From the NCBI RefSeq assembly GCF_007066085.1, contig NZ_CP041405.1, positions 3,631,001 to 3,695,000 on the forward strand: a stretch of 64,000 nt of DNA. The letters run 5' to 3'. This document shows, piece by piece, positions 7,267 through 13,816 of this stretch. A program made the position numbers and the translations under genes. Within the stretch, counting starts at the first letter, position 1. Each line of letters opens with the position of its first letter. The notes under the pieces are model-generated. The model saw nothing but the letters and a program-made list of their open reading frames with translations. It ran no database searches and was not told the origin of the DNA. Source of the DNA: Paenibacillus thiaminolyticus (GTDB lineage Bacteria; Bacillota; Bacilli; Paenibacillales; Paenibacillaceae).

Positions 7267-7295
7267 TTGACAAGGCAATCTATCAATATTAATCT
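7267..7295 (+). promoter_or_regulatory. Putative sigma-A promoter of the PPEP leader
   Basis: TTGACA at 7267-7272, a 17-bp spacer and TAATCT at 7290-7295. It lies about 50 bp before the first c-di-GMP aptamer. The -35 is perfect, the -10 is weak. Confidence 0.55.
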
Positions 7296-7346
7296 AAAGG
7301 TAGATAGATCACTAGATTTTTATTCCAACCGCATATCTATCCTAGT

Positions 7347-7432
7347 GATAAAGGCAAACCCATCGAAAGATGGCGACGCAAAGCTACAGGGGCTTCAGCG
7401 AATGATACTCGCTATGCCAGCCAGTTACCGAT
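7347..7432 (+). ncRNA. c-di-GMP-I (GEMM-I) riboswitch, aptamer 1
   Basis: AAGGCAAACC, a CATCGAAAGATG stem with GAAA tetraloop, GACGCAAAGC, AGGGGCTTCAG and ATGCCAGCCAGTTACCG reproduce the conserved core of GEMM-I in order. P1 can form as GGCAA/TTACC with the usual C.A position that accommodates the ligand. The 3' strand TTACCGA (7425-7431) is complementary to TCGGTAA (7482-7488) inside the following terminator, so ligand-free RNA can pair them and block termination. This predicts an OFF switch: c-di-GMP stabilises the aptamer and lets the terminator form. Confidence 0.93.
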
Positions 7433-7467
7433 AGAGATAGCTTGACGTGTCTTTCGCGAACGTTCCC

Positions 7468-7500
7468 AAGCCCTTCTTACTTCGGTAAGCGGGGCTTTTT
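7468..7500 (+). terminator. Riboswitch-controlled intrinsic terminator
   Basis: AAGCCC-TT-CTTAC-TTCG-GTAAG-C-GGGGCTT followed by TTT. It lies between the two c-di-GMP aptamers and 224 bp before the protease start. Its 3' arm contains TCGGTAA, complementary to the 3' strand of aptamer 1. Confidence 0.88.
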
Positions 7501-7536
7501 CATTAGGATGGACAAGCGAAGGAACAGGTCAACTCC

Positions 7537-7627
7537 GTATTGACAAAGGCAAACCTGTTGAAAAGCAGGGACGCAAAGCTATAGGGGCTTCAGCGCTGCC
7601 AGCGCTCAGCCAGCCAGCTACCAATAT
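7537..7627 (+). ncRNA. c-di-GMP-I (GEMM-I) riboswitch, aptamer 2
   Basis: The core repeats in order: AAAGGCAAACC, CTGTTGAAAAGCAG, GGACGCAAAGC, TAGGGGCTTCAG, GCCAGCCAGCTACC, closed by TATTG/CAATA. No U-rich terminator follows before the RBS (GAGGAGAG at 7707-7714). This second aptamer may act on translation, or on a weaker hairpin in 7630-7700 such as AACTCT...AGAGTT. Tandem c-di-GMP-I aptamers are known to sharpen dose response. Confidence 0.9.
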
Positions 7628-7723
7628 TGAAGCAAGCGCCAGCTGCGCGCTCAACTCTACCAATCCGGATGGACAGGAAGAGTTGCGGAAGCAGAGGCGC
7701 CGGGCTTCAGAGGAGAGATTGCG

Positions 7724-8377
7724 ATGAAATGGGACAAGCGTCTGTTGGGCCTGCTTGTATTGGCCGTTATCTTGTTCACGGTACCGGTCTATCCGGTTCA
7801 CGCCGAGGATGCCATTATCAATAAATTAGTCGTGCTGCCAAGCAGTGAATATAATGTCAAGGAAGCCGAAGCCATGAAGGAACGGCTGGCCAAGATCCCC
7901 GCCCGAATTCTGAACCAGCTGTATGACAAGGGCGTCACAATCAAGCTGACGAACGACATCATTACGAATGAACCGGAGTTAAGTTATTTGAAGGGCGTGA
8001 CGCCGCGAGGCTGGGAAGGCACCGGCATGACATGGGACGATGTTCCCGGCGTCAGCGAGCGCATTGTCGCCGCCCGCATCGGATACAGCAACAAGGGCCA
8101 TGGACACAATTCGTTCAATCTGGAAATTCACGAGACCATGCATGCGGTCGACCGCATCGTCTTCAATGAAATCAGCAGCACCGAGGAATTCAAGAACATT
8201 TTCAATCAGGAAGCGAATATCAAGTATAACGGGGACGGCTACGTGTCGGTCCATCCGACCGAATACTTCGCGGAGACCGCCAGCTTGTATGTATACAGCG
8301 ATGCGACACGGGAAGAACTCAAGGAGCTCACCCCGCTCACCTATGAATTCATGGACAAGCTGTTCGCTAATCCATAA
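7724..8377 (+). CDS. ppep-2: Secreted Pro-Pro endopeptidase, PPEP-2-like zinc protease
   Basis: A 217-residue secreted metallopeptidase of the ATLF-like/PPEP family, which hydrolyses bonds between two prolines. The signal peptide ends at about VHA27. The zinc motif HETMH is at 136-140 (catalytic E137), and the third ligand is expected at E184 in TEYFAE, with Y181 nearby. S111-E-R-I114 corresponds to the substrate-loop SERV of P. alvei PPEP-2, which sets preference for PLP|PVP. The convergent neighbour encodes a surface protein with two PLPPVP motifs, so substrate and protease are adjacent, as in P. alvei. Expression is predicted to be repressed by c-di-GMP through the upstream riboswitches. 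Confidence 0.93.
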   Translation: MKWDKRLLGLLVLAVILFTVPVYPVHAEDAIINKLVVLPSSEYNVKEAEAMKERLAKIPARILNQLYDKGVTIKLTNDIITNEPELSYLKGVTPRGWEGTGMTWDDVPGVSERIVAARIGYSNKGHGHNSFNLEIHETMHAVDRIVFNEISSTEEFKNIFNQEANIKYNGDGYVSVHPTEYFAETASLYVYSDATREELKELTPLTYEFMDKLFANP

Positions 8378-8384
8378 TAGACAT

Positions 8385-8424
8385 AGAAGCTCCTTCCGGG
8401 CAGATGCCGCGGAAGGAGCTTCTT
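8385..8424. terminator. Bidirectional terminator between PPEP and its substrate gene
   Basis: AGAAGCTCCTTCC / GGAAGGAGCTTCTT stem between the convergent protease and surface-protein genes, with T/A richness on both sides. Confidence 0.85.
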
Positions 8425-8444
8425 GTTCATGAGGCGAGCCTGCC

Positions 8445-11400
8445 TTATGGGTATACCCGGTCAGGCTGGATGGAATCCCACGTCTCATAACCGTCCTCGG
8501 AACGGCTGTACTCGTGGTGGTTCGTCGCTTCCAACACGTCCGAATAGTACCATTTGCCCGGCTTGTTGTCCGGCCATTGCTTCGCATCCTCGTGGATATC
8601 GGCTGCCTTCACCTTCCGATTCAGCACACTGTTAATGAAAGCCATCGCTTCCGCCCGCGTAATGTACTGGTTCGGCTTGAAGGTGCCGTCCGGATAACCT
8701 TTAATCCAGCCTTTGTTGGCCGCCGATACGATATATTTCTCTGCCCAATGTCCGGAAATATCCGAGAACATGCCGTTCGCTTGATCATTGAGCTTATCGA
8801 ATCGGGACGCAATCGCGGCGAACTCCGCCCGCGTAATGGATTGGCCGGGCTTGAAGGTGCCATCCTGATATCCGGTGATGATGCCGGCACGTTCCATCGT
8901 CGATATATGTTTGTTCGACCACCGCTTCTTGGCTACATCCGAGAACGAATTCTGGTCGGTCAGATAGTTCACGCGGCTCTCGTTCTCCATCAGACGATAG
9001 AAGATAGCGGCGACTTCTTCCCGGCTAATCTGATTCTCCGGCTTCACCGTGCCATCCGGGTAACCGTTGATGTAATTGTAGTGGTTCTCCATATCCAGCT
9101 TCGGCGGAACCGGCGGCAATGGCGGCACCGGTGGCAGCGGCTTCGGCGACGGCGTTATTGTCGTGGTGCTTCCTCCCGAACTGCCGCCAGTACCCGGATC
9201 CGGATTGGACGAGTTTTTCGTATAATAGAAAATATATTCCTGTCCTTCCGCATCGGTGAACGTGTACGTGCCGCTCGACTTCACCGGCGTATAGCCCGAT
9301 ACCGAGACCGCTGTCAACGTGACTTGGTCTCCCGGCTTGCCGCTCTGCGTCGTCGGCGCAGCCAGCTGTTGGCCCGATCCCTGCTCCAGATACTTCACAG
9401 TCACCTGGCGTTTCGTCTGGGATGAGTCCTTTTTATAGAAAATATTCAACATCTGCTCCGGTTCGTCACTGAATGTATACGGGTAACTTGAATGCTCAGG
9501 GTGATAGACGGCGCCCGTCACCGTAATCGGAGACGTCCAGTACAAAATCTGATCGCCGGCTCTTCCCTTGACTCGCTCGGAGTCTTTCAGCACATGGTTC
9601 GTCCCGGCTTCCAGATGATTAATCGTCAGAAGCTGGAAATCCCCATGCTCGCCCTTCACATAGTAGAACGTATACTGCTGATCAGGAGCCGTTGTAATCG
9701 TGTAAAGCTCATTGAATTTGAGCGGCGTATATACGGCATCGGTGACGGTAATCTGATCCGCTCTCAACCACAGCACTTCCCCGGACTTGCCGGAATGGGT
9801 GGACGGAGCTTGCAGTGCCAGATTCGATTCTTGATCCACGTAGTGAACCGTTACCGTGTACGTCTCGCCTTCATTTACTTTGTTATAGTAGAAGGTGTAT
9901 TCCTGCTCGGTGTCTGCTGTCACCGTGTACTCGACGCTATACCGTTCCGGCTTGTAGACCGCATCCGTCACCGTAATGTCTTCCGCCGTTAGCGTAAGCG
10001 CCGACCCAACTTCCCCGGTGCGTGAAGTGGACTCCTTCAGGGATTGTTCCGTCGCCCGATCGACGTAATGCACGATTACGGTGCGCTCTTCGCCTGTCGG
10101 ATCATCTTTGGTGTAGTAGAACGTATACACCTGGTCAGCTTCTGCCGAGAACGTGTACTTGTGCGTCGCGTTCAACGGCTTGTAGCCCGCCACTTCTTCC
10201 GACGTCAGTTCGATGGTCTGCCCGGTTACGCCTTCTTTCATCGTTTCGTCAGCCAGTACTTTGTCTGTACCCTTTTCCAGGTACTTCACTGTTAGCGTCT
10301 GACTGCTTCCGACGTAGTAGAAGATGTATTCGTTCGTTCCTGCTTTGAACGTGTACTCATACGTCTCGTTCTCCGCTGTGTAACCCGGAATCGGCTTCGC
10401 TTCCAACATTACCGTCTGACCCGTTACGCCTTCTTTCGTCGTTTCGTCAGCCAGTACTTTATCCGTACCCTTTTCCAGGTACTTCACGGTTACGATCTGC
10501 TTCTGGGCCGTGTAGTAGAAGATGTACTCCTGGTTGCCTTCCGCTGTGAACGTATAAGTATGTTCACTCGGCGCTACTGGCTCATACCCTTCTACCGGCT
10601 TCGCTGTCAGCAGCCTCGTCGAGCCCGTTGGGCCTGTGAACGTATCCGGATCGGCTACCTTAACATCCGTTGTGCCTTCCAGCAGATACTTCACGGTTAC
10701 CGTCTGCTTCTTAGCCTTATAGTAGAAGATGTGCTCCTGGTTGGCGTCCGCTGTGAACGTATAAGTATGTTCACTCGGCGCTTCTGGCTCATACCCTTCT
10801 ACCGGCTTCGCTGTCAGCAGCTTCATCGAGCCCGTTGGACCTGTGAACGTATCCGGGGCGGCAACCTCGACATCCGTTGTGCCTTCCAACAGATACTTCA
10901 CGGTTACCGTCTGTTCCTTGGCCGTGTAGTAGAAAATATACTCGTTCTTACCTGCTTTGAACGTGTACTCATACGTCTCGTTCTCCGCTGTGTAACCCGG
11001 AATCGGCTTCGCTTCCAACGTTACCGTCTGACCCGTTACGCCTTCTTTCGTCGTTTCGTCAGCCAGTACTTTATCCGTACCCTTTTCCAGGTACTTCACG
11101 GTGACCGTCTGCTTCTTAGCCTTATAGTAGAAGACATGATCCGAATTTTCGCCGGCCTTCAGCACATAATTCACTGATTTCGGTTCTTCCGCTTCATAGC
11201 CCGCAATTTCTTCGGGTTTCAGCGTAAGCTCTTCCCCGGTTTTCCCTGTCTTCACACTTGGGTCCAGCAGTTCCTTGCCTGTTGCCCGGTCTACATAGCG
11301 AACCTTTACGCTTTGCTCTATTCCATTGTAGTAGAAGACATGATCTGGATTTTCGCCAGCCTTCAGCACATAATTCACTGATTTCGGCTCTTCCGCTTCA

Positions 11401-13508
11401 TAGCCCGCAATTTCTTCGGGTTTCAGCGTAAGCTCTTCCCCGGTTTTCCCTGTCTTCACACTTGGGTCCAGCAGTTCCTTGCCTGTTGCCCGTTCTACAT
11501 AGCGAACCTTTACGCTTTGCTCTGTTCCATTGTAGTAGAAGACATGATCCGGATTTTCGCCAGCCTTCAGCACATAATTCACTGATTTCGGCTCTTCCGC
11601 TTCATAGCCCGCAATTTCTTCGGCTTTCAGCGTAAGCTCTTCCCCGGTCTTCCCTGTCTTCACACTTGGGTCCAGCAGTTCCTTGCCTGTTGCCCGGTCT
11701 ACGTAACGGACTTTTACGCTCTGATCCTTTGCTGTGTAATGAAAAGTAATCGTTACATCCTTGGCAGGCATCACGCCCGTTACATGCCCTTGGTCCACGC
11801 TCAGTCCGCTGCCCTCGCTAACCTCGGCACTGGCGAACTCATATCCGGCGAAATTCTTGCTGCTTATATCAATCGATTCGCCCGGCTTTTTGTCCGCATC
11901 ACTGCGATCCAGCACCTTGTCTCCCGATTGATGAACAATCGTAAGCTTGTTAGGGACATCGTTGTAACCGAACCAAATAATTGGCGATGGCTTGCTTACC
12001 GTTAAATCAACCTTCGTTGGATTAGCTCCAACTCTCAACGTGTAACCTGGCACCGTTGGCGCTGGAATGGTATAGGATTGGCCGACCTCAAGCGCATCGC
12101 TTCCATTCTCCTCGTGGTAGCGGCTGTACAGCTCTTGGGCCAAATCAGGACGCTCGACTTCTTGACCGTCAGAATTGACCGGCTTGCCGTTGGCATTGAC
12201 CTTATACGCCTTTACAAGAATCGAACCTTTGCCCAAGCCCACTCTCGGCACTTCGAAATCCTTCGACGTACGGTCACCCTTCGCATCGGTGTAATTCATC
12301 GTCGTTGTCTTGTTAGTCGGGTACAATTGTTTCGGATCCGGATTTTTGGAGTGATCCATTTTGACCCGGTAAGTAAGAGTCGCTGGATTGCCTTCCGTGA
12401 CATTGCCGATGTCCCAGTTGAACGTCTCGGTTTGCGGGTTCCAGGTGACCTCCCCTTGAGAGACCTTATAGTCGTCCGGGCCGAAGGAGCTCCCCTTCAA
12501 CTTCAGATCGAACATGTCCCCCATCGGGTCAGTGACTACCGCATTTTCAGCGGCAAAGGCAATTTTGCTGGCCAGCTCGGAGAAGATTCGCTCCAGACTG
12601 TCGCTGCTGCCCGAATAATAACCTTTGTTCCCTACATCCTTCAGCGTATTGGTTGCATTGCTATTGCTCCCCACATCCAACCCGATAGAATAAATGCCGA
12701 TTCCGGCATCATGGGCCAGCTTGGCTTCGGAAATCGTGCCGATGCCATTGTCTTTAATTTCAAACTCATAGCTGCAGCTCCACCAACCACAAGTTTCCTT
12801 GCCCAAACCATACCAGCTAGATCCTAGGCTAAAACTGGAGCCCGACCCGATAATGTTTTTGTAGTTAAAATCAGAAAGAATAAACTGATGGCTATTATTT
12901 CCCCATGAACCTTTTACTGCAGTAGACGCCTTGTAACTATACGTCGGCTCCCCGTCACTCAGCAGAACGATCACTTTGTTGTTGGCCTGGCTTGTCTTTA
13001 AAAGTTCCTGAGCTTCGTGGAGTCCTGCCTGAATATTCGTTCCCCCGGTCGCCTGTATATTATCAATGGCACGTTTCAATTCCGTCTTCTGGTCAAGGCC
13101 TTTGAAGTCAGATACCTGATCAGAAGTCTTATTGAAGGTCACTACTGCAATTCTCGTGTCCGAGTCTTCAATCAACAGATTGTCAACGAATTTCTTGGCT
13201 GCATCCTTCGCCTTTGGCAATCGATTCTGGTTCGGTTTTTGGGTCATGCTTCCCGACTTGTCGATCACGAGCACGACATCGGAGGAGCCCGATTTCAGGT
13301 TCTTGCCTTCGACGGTCAGTGTAATATCCCATTCATCCAGCTTGCCTTCGACCGGGTTGGCTTCCTTCGTGAGCTTCACCGCTCCCGGATTCGGCCACTC
13401 AAGCTCCCCGGAACTCGCCGCCTGGGCGCCGATCGTGCCCGGAATCGTCCCAAATGCGACACTCAACATACACAACCATGTAACTACTAGTCTGAATCGG
13501 CGTTTCAT
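8445..13508 (-). CDS. VWA/MucBP/SLH giant surface protein, predicted PPEP substrate (VMSP-like)
   Basis: A 1687-residue cell-wall adhesin candidate. Order: signal peptide (1-31, AQAASS); VWA domain about 78-320 with MIDAS D83-K-S85-G-S87; a beta-rich domain to about 440; two divergent and then twelve clear MucBP-type repeats (about 593-1427, ~67 residues each); a Gly/Ser/Thr linker ending in two abutting PLPPVP motifs (residues 1457-1462 and 1463-1468); and three SLH domains (about 1475-1687) that bind secondary cell-wall polymer. PPEP-2 cuts PLP|PVP, so cleavage would free everything except the SLH anchor. P. alvei encodes a protein of this type next to PPEP-2. RBS GAGGAGG. The leader holds a GEMM-like riboswitch and terminator. 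Confidence 0.93.
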   Translation of the reverse strand: MKRRFRLVVTWLCMLSVAFGTIPGTIGAQAASSGELEWPNPGAVKLTKEANPVEGKLDEWDITLTVEGKNLKSGSSDVVLVIDKSGSMTQKPNQNRLPKAKDAAKKFVDNLLIEDSDTRIAVVTFNKTSDQVSDFKGLDQKTELKRAIDNIQATGGTNIQAGLHEAQELLKTSQANNKVIVLLSDGEPTYSYKASTAVKGSWGNNSHQFILSDFNYKNIIGSGSSFSLGSSWYGLGKETCGWWSCSYEFEIKDNGIGTISEAKLAHDAGIGIYSIGLDVGSNSNATNTLKDVGNKGYYSGSSDSLERIFSELASKIAFAAENAVVTDPMGDMFDLKLKGSSFGPDDYKVSQGEVTWNPQTETFNWDIGNVTEGNPATLTYRVKMDHSKNPDPKQLYPTNKTTTMNYTDAKGDRTSKDFEVPRVGLGKGSILVKAYKVNANGKPVNSDGQEVERPDLAQELYSRYHEENGSDALEVGQSYTIPAPTVPGYTLRVGANPTKVDLTVSKPSPIIWFGYNDVPNKLTIVHQSGDKVLDRSDADKKPGESIDISSKNFAGYEFASAEVSEGSGLSVDQGHVTGVMPAKDVTITFHYTAKDQSVKVRYVDRATGKELLDPSVKTGKTGEELTLKAEEIAGYEAEEPKSVNYVLKAGENPDHVFYYNGTEQSVKVRYVERATGKELLDPSVKTGKTGEELTLKPEEIAGYEAEEPKSVNYVLKAGENPDHVFYYNGIEQSVKVRYVDRATGKELLDPSVKTGKTGEELTLKPEEIAGYEAEEPKSVNYVLKAGENSDHVFYYKAKKQTVTVKYLEKGTDKVLADETTKEGVTGQTVTLEAKPIPGYTAENETYEYTFKAGKNEYIFYYTAKEQTVTVKYLLEGTTDVEVAAPDTFTGPTGSMKLLTAKPVEGYEPEAPSEHTYTFTADANQEHIFYYKAKKQTVTVKYLLEGTTDVKVADPDTFTGPTGSTRLLTAKPVEGYEPVAPSEHTYTFTAEGNQEYIFYYTAQKQIVTVKYLEKGTDKVLADETTKEGVTGQTVMLEAKPIPGYTAENETYEYTFKAGTNEYIFYYVGSSQTLTVKYLEKGTDKVLADETMKEGVTGQTIELTSEEVAGYKPLNATHKYTFSAEADQVYTFYYTKDDPTGEERTVIVHYVDRATEQSLKESTSRTGEVGSALTLTAEDITVTDAVYKPERYSVEYTVTADTEQEYTFYYNKVNEGETYTVTVHYVDQESNLALQAPSTHSGKSGEVLWLRADQITVTDAVYTPLKFNELYTITTAPDQQYTFYYVKGEHGDFQLLTINHLEAGTNHVLKDSERVKGRAGDQILYWTSPITVTGAVYHPEHSSYPYTFSDEPEQMLNIFYKKDSSQTKRQVTVKYLEQGSGQQLAAPTTQSGKPGDQVTLTAVSVSGYTPVKSSGTYTFTDAEGQEYIFYYTKNSSNPDPGTGGSSGGSTTTITPSPKPLPPVPPLPPVPPKLDMENHYNYINGYPDGTVKPENQISREEVAAIFYRLMENESRVNYLTDQNSFSDVAKKRWSNKHISTMERAGIITGYQDGTFKPGQSITRAEFAAIASRFDKLNDQANGMFSDISGHWAEKYIVSAANKGWIKGYPDGTFKPNQYITRAEAMAFINSVLNRKVKAADIHEDAKQWPDNKPGKWYYSDVLEATNHHEYSRSEDGYETWDSIQPDRVYP
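9105..9140 (-). other. Two tandem Pro-Pro endopeptidase sites (PLPPVP x2)
   Basis: Codons at 9123-9140 and 9105-9122 each encode PLPPVP, head to tail, immediately before the SLH anchor. The codons differ between the two copies (CTG CCA CCG GTG versus TTG CCG CCG GTT). The peptide is therefore kept although the DNA has diverged. Confidence 0.8.
9200..11730 (-). repeat. MucBP-coding DNA repeats inside the surface protein gene
   Basis: Twelve ~200-bp units. Three near-identical 201-bp units occupy about 11127-11730 (each with GTAGTAGAAGACATGATC or a one-base variant). A second sub-family with TTTCCAGGTACTTCAC recurs at about 10275, 10480 and 11085. Units near the SLH end are more diverged. Such identity allows copy-number change by recombination. 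Confidence 0.85.
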
Positions 13509-13624
13509 AGTTTCCTCCTCATTTTTTCATCTGAGTCCTCCTTTGCAGAGTAAAAATTGCCTCCTCACGTCTTATTTATATCGTTCTGCGGGCCAAAAAT
13601 ACCGCGGAGAACCGCCCTATGAAA

Positions 13625-13671
13625 AATAAAAAAATCCGGCTGCAATTTAACGATTGTTAAATGCAGCCGGA
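13625..13671 (-). terminator. Leader terminator of the surface protein gene
   Basis: On the minus strand: CCGGCTGCATTTAAC, loop AATC, GTTAAATTGCAGCCGG, then a run of seven T. Its 5' arm is the same sequence that closes the upstream GEMM-like aptamer, so the two structures exclude each other. It lies about 115 bp before the start codon. Confidence 0.9.
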
Positions 13672-13742
13672 CGATCATGGGCCTGACGACCTTTAGATTC
13701 CTAAGCTTTGCGGCCTAATCTTTCGATTAGTGTGCCCTATGT
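13655..13742 (-). ncRNA. GEMM-like (c-di-GMP-I) riboswitch in the surface-protein leader
   Basis: Reading the minus strand: ATAGGGCACAC, CTAATCGAAAGATTAG (GAAA tetraloop), GCCGCAAAGC, TCTAAAGG, CCATGATCG, CCGGCTGC. These follow the order of GEMM-I landmarks (GGCAAAC, GAAA hairpin, ACGCAAAGC, CTAAGG, ATGACAGCC). The departures are GCACAC for GCAAAC, CCGC for ACGC and a weaker P1, so the ligand is less certain than for the PPEP leader. Because the 3' aptamer strand is also the 5' terminator arm, ligand binding should prevent termination (ON switch). Confidence 0.7.
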
Positions 13743-13787
13743 AATTGGCGTATCCAATCATATCCAGCTAAAGCACTATTCATGCTC

Positions 13788-13816
13788 AATATATGGGACA
13801 GCCTCCTATTTGTCAA
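13788..13816 (-). promoter_or_regulatory. Sigma-A promoter of the surface protein gene
   Basis: On the minus strand TTGACA (13811-13816), a 17-bp spacer, TATATT (13788-13793). It would start an RNA of about 270 nt leader containing the GEMM-like element. Confidence 0.75.

Follow-up and report, generated by a model that had tools for sequence, protein, structure and literature searches.

In C. difficile, a class I c-di-GMP riboswitch lies on the gene of the Pro-Pro endopeptidase PPEP-1 and class II riboswitches lie on the genes of its substrates, and the two sides are inversely regulated, as described in the available part of the report (PMC11477304). A second report, likewise available in part, describes the class I riboswitches of this species as OFF switches and the class II ones as ON switches, with one exception, a class I gene whose expression rose overall with c-di-GMP and for which the promoter was held responsible (PMC6200980). 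In Paenibacillus alvei, PPEP-2 cuts the product of the adjacent gene, VMSP, at PLPPVP, according to the accessible sections of the source (PMC10413326); the structure PDB 6fpc is that of this P. alvei enzyme, and the specificity of PPEPs is described, in the part of the article at hand, as being influenced by the beta4/beta5 loop (PMC12828418). In Bacillus thuringiensis, the c-di-GMP riboswitch Bc2 precedes the collagen adhesion protein gene cap, as stated in the available text (PMC4933901), and c-di-GMP riboswitches have been reported, in a source available in part, to be enriched in tandem, each with its own platform (PMC12452182).

The window analyzed here is a stretch of 64,000 nucleotides of the Paenibacillus thiaminolyticus genome (NCBI RefSeq assembly GCF_007066085.1, contig NZ_CP041405.1, positions 3,631,001 to 3,695,000 of the forward strand), and the features of the locus of interest are collected in Table 1. 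The best solved relative of the protease ORF was PDB 6fpc (E 3.9e-94, residues 28-216), which was matched across the whole PPEP domain with the HEXXH motif conserved, the HETMH of the protease being placed opposite the HETLH of 6fpc. In the same alignment, SERI of the protease was placed opposite SERV, in what we take to be the very loop that determines PPEP-2 specificity. The surface protein gene is convergent to the protease gene, and its product contains VWA, GBS104-like Ig, MucBP (five stretches) and SLH (three stretches) domains together with a PLPPVP linker, which is the composition that defines a VMSP. Thus, the pair that the first-pass annotation had read from the sequence alone, a PPEP-2-like secreted protease and a convergent VWA/MucBP/SLH neighbor with PLPPVP sites, was confirmed by the structural and domain matches.

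Table 1. Features of the protease and VMSP locus of P. thiaminolyticus (positions are those of the window).
Feature	Position	Strand	Basis
Probable sigma-A-type promoter of the protease transcript, TTGACA / 17 nt / TAATCT	7267..7295	+	sequence reading
c-di-GMP-I aptamer 1 (T1), protease leader	7343..7432	+	RF01051, 77.1 bits
Antiterminator 5' strand UUACCGA, within the 3' end of aptamer 1	7425..7431	+	pairs with 7482-7488 in cut-segment fold
T1 intrinsic terminator with U run, detached from the aptamer (+36)	7468..7500	+	terminator calls, alignment
CUCC directly 5' of aptamer 2, possible anti-Shine-Dalgarno	7533..7536	+	pairs with GGAG 7712-7715 in fold
c-di-GMP-I aptamer 2 (T2), protease leader	7538..7625	+	RF01051, 78.6 bits
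GGAG Shine-Dalgarno of the protease gene	7712..7715	+	sequence; accessibility modelled
Secreted zinc Pro-Pro endopeptidase, PPEP-2-type, 217 aa	7724..8377	+	HETMH motif; signal-peptide-like N terminus (by eye)
GC-rich hairpin in the convergent intergenic region, possibly a shared terminator	8387..8421	.	sequence reading
VMSP-type surface protein, 1687 aa; signal-peptide-like N terminus (by eye)	8445..13508	-	ORF and domain matches
Two PLPPVP sites, lying between last MucBP repeat and SLH region	9106..9140	-	genome positions 3640106-3640140, translated
Mini-ORF ATGAAAAAATGA (Met-Lys-Lys-stop), stop at VMSP Shine-Dalgarno	13519..13530	-	sequence
Intrinsic terminator, VMSP leader; 5' arm formed by the 3' strand of the aptamer itself	13634..13672	-	terminator calls, alignment
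c-di-GMP-I aptamer (V), VMSP leader	13659..13746	-	RF01051, 64.1 bits
Probable sigma-A-type promoter of VMSP, TTGACA / 17 nt / TATATT	13788..13816	-	sequence reading

The annotation had placed a GEMM-type leader before each gene and had proposed a covariance-model search of both and a comparison of the locus in other genomes. In the search with the Rfam model RF01051 (c-di-GMP-I; gathering score 35 bits), all matches in the protease and VMSP leaders exceeded the gathering score, so that both leaders belong to GEMM-I and are predicted to bind c-di-GMP; the annotation had missed, however, that the protease leader is a tandem of two aptamers. The P. thiaminolyticus genome (6.6 Mb) contained six c-di-GMP-I matches, three of them at this locus. 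Of the other three, two class I aptamers precede a chitinase-like ORF (L005, 1501-1583) and a secreted ORF (L003, 1501-1590), and a c-di-GMP-I-GGC variant, for which the GGC model scored better, stands shortly before a phosphopantetheinyl-transferase-like ORF that is followed by an NRPS-like ORF (L001, 1502-1591), the genes being named by eye.

For the comparison, residues 1-440 of the surface protein served as the query, which matched in 9 of the 19 genus genomes (E 1e-20) and in 47 of 394 genomes of the family (E 1e-15), and loci were taken from the 9 genus genomes and from 28 other genomes with E < 1e-80, leaving out 10 genomes with weaker matches. A c-di-GMP-I aptamer preceded the surface protein in all 37 loci, and a paralogous leader in L052 brought the number of VMSP leaders to 38. 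Contig ends truncate four of the 28 (L082, L083, L084, and L094), so that the flanks were readable in 33 loci, and one or more opposing aptamers were present in 30 of them (9/9 in the genus and 21/24 outside it), at least two being visible in 27 of these 30. No opposing aptamer was seen in L075 and L086, both of which carry a long mask at the place concerned, or in L100, in which nothing is masked; by eye, a T1-like promoter directly precedes the mask in L075, and nothing was recognizable in L086. The place of the protease reads N in those relatives that reach past the VMSP gene, with the exception of L100, the window itself being readable, and the protease is presumably present in these relatives, as suggested by the position of the mask next to the tandem aptamers. 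Searches with the protease sequence gave no match, neither among genome contigs (90 stretches fitted a pattern, and none was confirmed) nor in 394 genomes of the family; as the P. thiaminolyticus genome was itself missed in the latter search and the protease place is masked in the relatives, these negatives carry no information on distribution. With three of the six matches in the genome lying here and opposed aptamers recurring in the related loci, the aptamers of the locus are not a matter of chance. When named genomes were scanned with the surface-protein-aptamer pattern, 28 stretches were returned; every one is from the Paenibacillaceae, and P. alvei DSM 29, P. apiarius, and P. dendritiformis are represented among them. 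In L050, one aptamer before the surface protein is opposed by two. P. alvei DSM 29, of the species of PPEP-2, very probably carries the opposed three-aptamer layout, with the protease stretch masked. It was also observed that the surface-protein frame of L050, L089, and L101 is broken into two overlapping ORFs, by a sequencing error or a true break.

In the VMSP leader, the terminator is built on the aptamer itself. In all 38 leaders, the 5' arm of the terminator started 9-21 nt upstream of the point at which the aptamer match ends, and nine alignment columns were common to the closing aptamer stem and the terminator, indicating a shared platform. Among the 37 aligned leaders, the aptamer stem was paired in 100% of the cells and the terminator in 97.5%. 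On paper, the two structures are mutually exclusive; hence, an aptamer held by its ligand should prevent termination, which corresponds to an ON switch. When the VMSP leaders were folded to the U run without ligand, the terminator formed in 10 of 10 leaders of the genus, the paralogue included. The terminator alignment of the 37 leaders contained no two-sided compensatory change; its 5' strand is in any case fixed by the aptamer. Downstream, the mini-ORF of the VMSP leader has its own Shine-Dalgarno, and its stop codon overlaps the Shine-Dalgarno of VMSP. Among the 38 leaders examined, a start was found in 36, and 17 of these carried the Met-Lys-Lys-stop, every one of the longer-leader type; L075 carried Met-Lys-Ile-stop. 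Translational coupling between the mini-ORF and VMSP is possible.

In the protease leader, by comparison, the terminator of T1 stands apart from the aptamer. The automatic caller placed it at +27 to +37 in 25 of 30 first protease leaders. Five departed from this: L092 is masked, L049 was miscalled, and for each of L076, L077, and L081 the caller reported a single long hairpin enclosing the same terminator core. The same terminator was present in all 27 aligned leaders, with 97.5% of the cells paired. Long antiterminator-type hairpins are mistaken by the automatic caller for overlapping terminators. A control set of other c-di-GMP-I loci of the genus (23 taken, of which L017 and L018 were dropped because their coordinates did not fit) was scored as 8 overlapping, 9 detached, and 4 without a terminator, and the set of 21 was not used as a background, seven of the eight overlapping calls being, by eye, long hairpins of the antiterminator type.

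The aptamer and the terminator of T1 appear to be linked by an antiterminator, in which UUACCGA at the 3' end of the aptamer can pair with UCGGUAA in the loop and 3' arm of the terminator. This pairing, with 5-7 of the 7 pairs, formed in all 27 leaders when a segment was folded that had been cut so that the antiterminator strands make up its two ends, a choice that favors the pairing. The antiterminator was paired in 97.4% of the cells, compared with 29-62% when the partner was slid, and, in shuffles of the linker that preserved dinucleotides only approximately (with a plain shuffle as the fallback), an equally good site arose in 1 to 41 of 200 per sequence. No two-sided compensatory change was found in the antiterminator of the 27 aligned leaders, the 5' strand of which is fixed by the aptamer anyway. 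When covariation was sought in both platforms, a two-sided change appeared only in the T1 terminator (one pair, 8 cells); because the other helices are conserved without compensation, the case for the platforms rests on conservation and mutual exclusion. Binding of the ligand to aptamer 1 should withdraw the antiterminator strand, which corresponds to an OFF switch. Thus, the opposite polarity that had been assigned to the two leaders agrees with their anatomy, that is, with the overlapping terminators on the VMSP side and the antiterminator on the T1 side.

The antiterminator was then the weaker partner in competition folds of the 27 leaders: with the 3' segment including the 3' arm of the terminator, the terminator formed in 24 and the antiterminator in 3, and with the whole first protease leader, in 23 and 4, respectively. 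This outcome speaks against a simple equilibrium switch for T1, and it slightly lowered our confidence in the reading of the locus as a module. Since the equilibrium folds favor the terminators, the antiterminator can act only during transcription, by co-transcriptional switching. Action during RNA synthesis is usual for transcriptional riboswitches.

The second aptamer seems to work differently. No intrinsic terminator was found between aptamer 2 and the protease start codon in P. thiaminolyticus, and the CUCC directly before the aptamer paired with the Shine-Dalgarno GGAG, also in an unconstrained fold of this one sequence without the aptamer enforced. The modelled chance of being unpaired for the four GGAG bases was 0.41-0.65 in the free leader; it fell to 0.30-0.49 once the inner aptamer helices were enforced, and adding the outer helix brought it down to 0.02-0.07. 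CUCC was located 5-7 nt before the last protease aptamer in 17 of 27 leaders, compared with 0 of 30 first aptamers and 0 of 38 VMSP leaders; with the criterion relaxed to CCUC within 20 nt, the counts were 18 of 27 last protease aptamers and 3 of 38 VMSP leaders. In L049, the second aptamer is followed by a terminator instead. From the modelled accessibility, T2 is probably a translational OFF switch in P. thiaminolyticus, which we hold with moderate confidence. In L079 (3683-4130, genome G285), three c-di-GMP-I aptamers stand in a row before the masked place, and the first two carry an identical terminator hairpin, suggesting a recent duplication.

Taken together, it is very likely, in our estimation, that VMSP and the protease constitute an inversely wired c-di-GMP module for display and release. 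When c-di-GMP is high, the VMSP aptamer would bind it and hold its own 3' strand, which would block the overlapping terminator and allow the SLH-anchored protein, presumably an adhesin, to be made; at the same time, aptamer 1 would hold the antiterminator strand, and transcription would stop before the protease, with aptamer 2 adding a further block, probably on translation in P. thiaminolyticus. When c-di-GMP is low, the synthesis of VMSP would stop and the secreted PPEP-2-type protease would be made, which would release the VWA-MucBP ectodomain by cutting VMSP at PLP/PVP, immediately outside its SLH anchor. Stacked OFF switches on the protease, of which there are two, or three in one species, might each suffice for silencing, and the threshold for shut-off might then lie below that at which VMSP is switched on, so that switching would be ordered instead of simultaneous.

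Other explanations depend on how the aptamers themselves are read. It may be supposed that only the protease is under the control of c-di-GMP and that the VMSP leader no longer binds its ligand to useful effect, its terminator being a fixed brake; the lower scores of the VMSP aptamers (47-69 bits, most protease aptamers being higher) and the presence of GGCAC in 37 of 37 aligned VMSP aptamers versus GGCAA in 27 of 27 aligned first protease aptamers are in line with this. A dead aptamer, however, would need neither its stem nor an overlapping terminator, and both have been kept in all of the aligned VMSP leaders. In addition, the bases that we take to contact the ligand (the G before GC, the CAAAG bases, and the C near the 3' end) are all invariant in the VMSP aptamer alignment, and we regard a loss of binding as improbable. 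The difference between GGCAC and GGCAA could instead tune the affinity and hence the order of switching. Some GEMM-I variants prefer 3',3'-cGAMP, so that the ligand might be this or another cyclic dinucleotide; nevertheless, the one position that presumably sets the preference for c-di-GMP is occupied by G in all aligned aptamers (first protease, 27 of 27; VMSP, 37 of 37), which makes a different ligand very improbable.

The relationship between the protease and VMSP could also be incidental, the protease acting elsewhere and VMSP not being its physiological substrate in P. thiaminolyticus. The reported cleavage, in the part of the source available, concerns P. alvei (PMC10413326), and in many relatives PLPPVP is replaced by LPPAP or LPPLP (A or L for V). 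On the other hand, of the 33 readable VMSPs, 32 carry LPPxP in the C-terminal linker (9/9 in the genus and 23/24 in the others), at roughly 220-245 residues from the C-terminus, and in the proteins in which Pfam placed the SLH region (those of P. thiaminolyticus, L092, and L098), the cut site lies N-terminal to it. The sole readable VMSP without LPPxP is that of L100, the locus with neither an opposing aptamer nor a mask; it is a VWA and SLH protein without a MucBP match, has an overlapping-terminator leader, and is among the most divergent surface proteins (45% identity). As a single case, the joint absence of the Pro-Pro site, the opposing aptamer, and the mask in L100 is suggestive but no proof. 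A scan of the P. thiaminolyticus genome for the PLPPVP coding pattern gave four matches; VMSP accounts for two of them, and the other two lie in frames unlike surface proteins. The backward control gave eight, which leaves this search for a second substrate little power. Cleavage of VMSP at PLP/PVP by the adjacent protease is what the site and the protease type predict, and we consider an incidental proximity very improbable. Apart from this, a second VMSP-type leader stands before a MucBP and SLH protein with LPPAP beside the main locus in L052 (1893-12139, genome G265), and this protein is possibly a second substrate without a protease of its own.

The module of VMSP and the protease, which is real, conserved, and coherent, is a variant of the logic known from C. 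difficile and not a new kind of system. If the proposed wiring is true, the inverse control of an adhesin and its shedding protease by c-di-GMP is a recurring solution rather than a peculiarity of C. difficile, and class I riboswitches alone can supply both signs. About thirty natural versions would then be available for studying the ON and OFF wiring of one aptamer and the thresholds of tandem OFF switches, and they would also show how a protease, a riboswitch, and a cut site stay together in evolution. The broader proposal, of a family-wide SLH-anchored circuit that draws opposite outputs from one class, turns the protease off before display by stacked OFF switches, and has a substrate side of separate origin from that of C. 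difficile, has in our judgment an even chance of being correct.

Bc2 of Bacillus thuringiensis is a class I riboswitch. It is likewise the switch of an adhesin gene, and no paired protease with an opposite switch is described in the available text of that report (PMC4933901). The tandem c-di-GMP-I riboswitches reported so far belong to other genes, with no Pro-Pro endopeptidase among those listed in the accessible part of the article (PMC12452182). Neither riboswitches nor c-di-GMP are mentioned in the PPEP papers searched, and our literature search, with the paper on the discovery of PPEP-2 (Klychnikov et al, 2018) and one on PPEP phylogeny outside its scope, found no report that connects PPEP-2 with a riboswitch or with c-di-GMP. 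The P. alvei PPEP-2 and VMSP pair, as far as it is described in the source available, resembles the present one in the type of protease, the type of adjacent substrate, and the PLPPVP site. The parallel with C. difficile, which the first-pass annotation had drawn, holds for the cited reports to the extent of their available parts (PMC11477304, PMC6200980): PPEP-1 (CD2830) and its substrates CD2831 and CD3246 share with this locus a secreted Pro-Pro endopeptidase, an adjacent surface substrate, and class I on the protease. The substrates of C. difficile, according to the same available parts, are anchored covalently to peptidoglycan and carry class II ON switches, whereas in Paenibacillus the substrate is SLH-anchored and preceded by a class I switch of the ON type, and two or three aptamers stand in a row before the protease. 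For the protease side, a common ancestry with PPEP-1 and the class I leader of PPEP-1 is conceivable; on the substrate side, where the two clearly differ, the Paenibacillus circuit may have originated independently of that of C. difficile.
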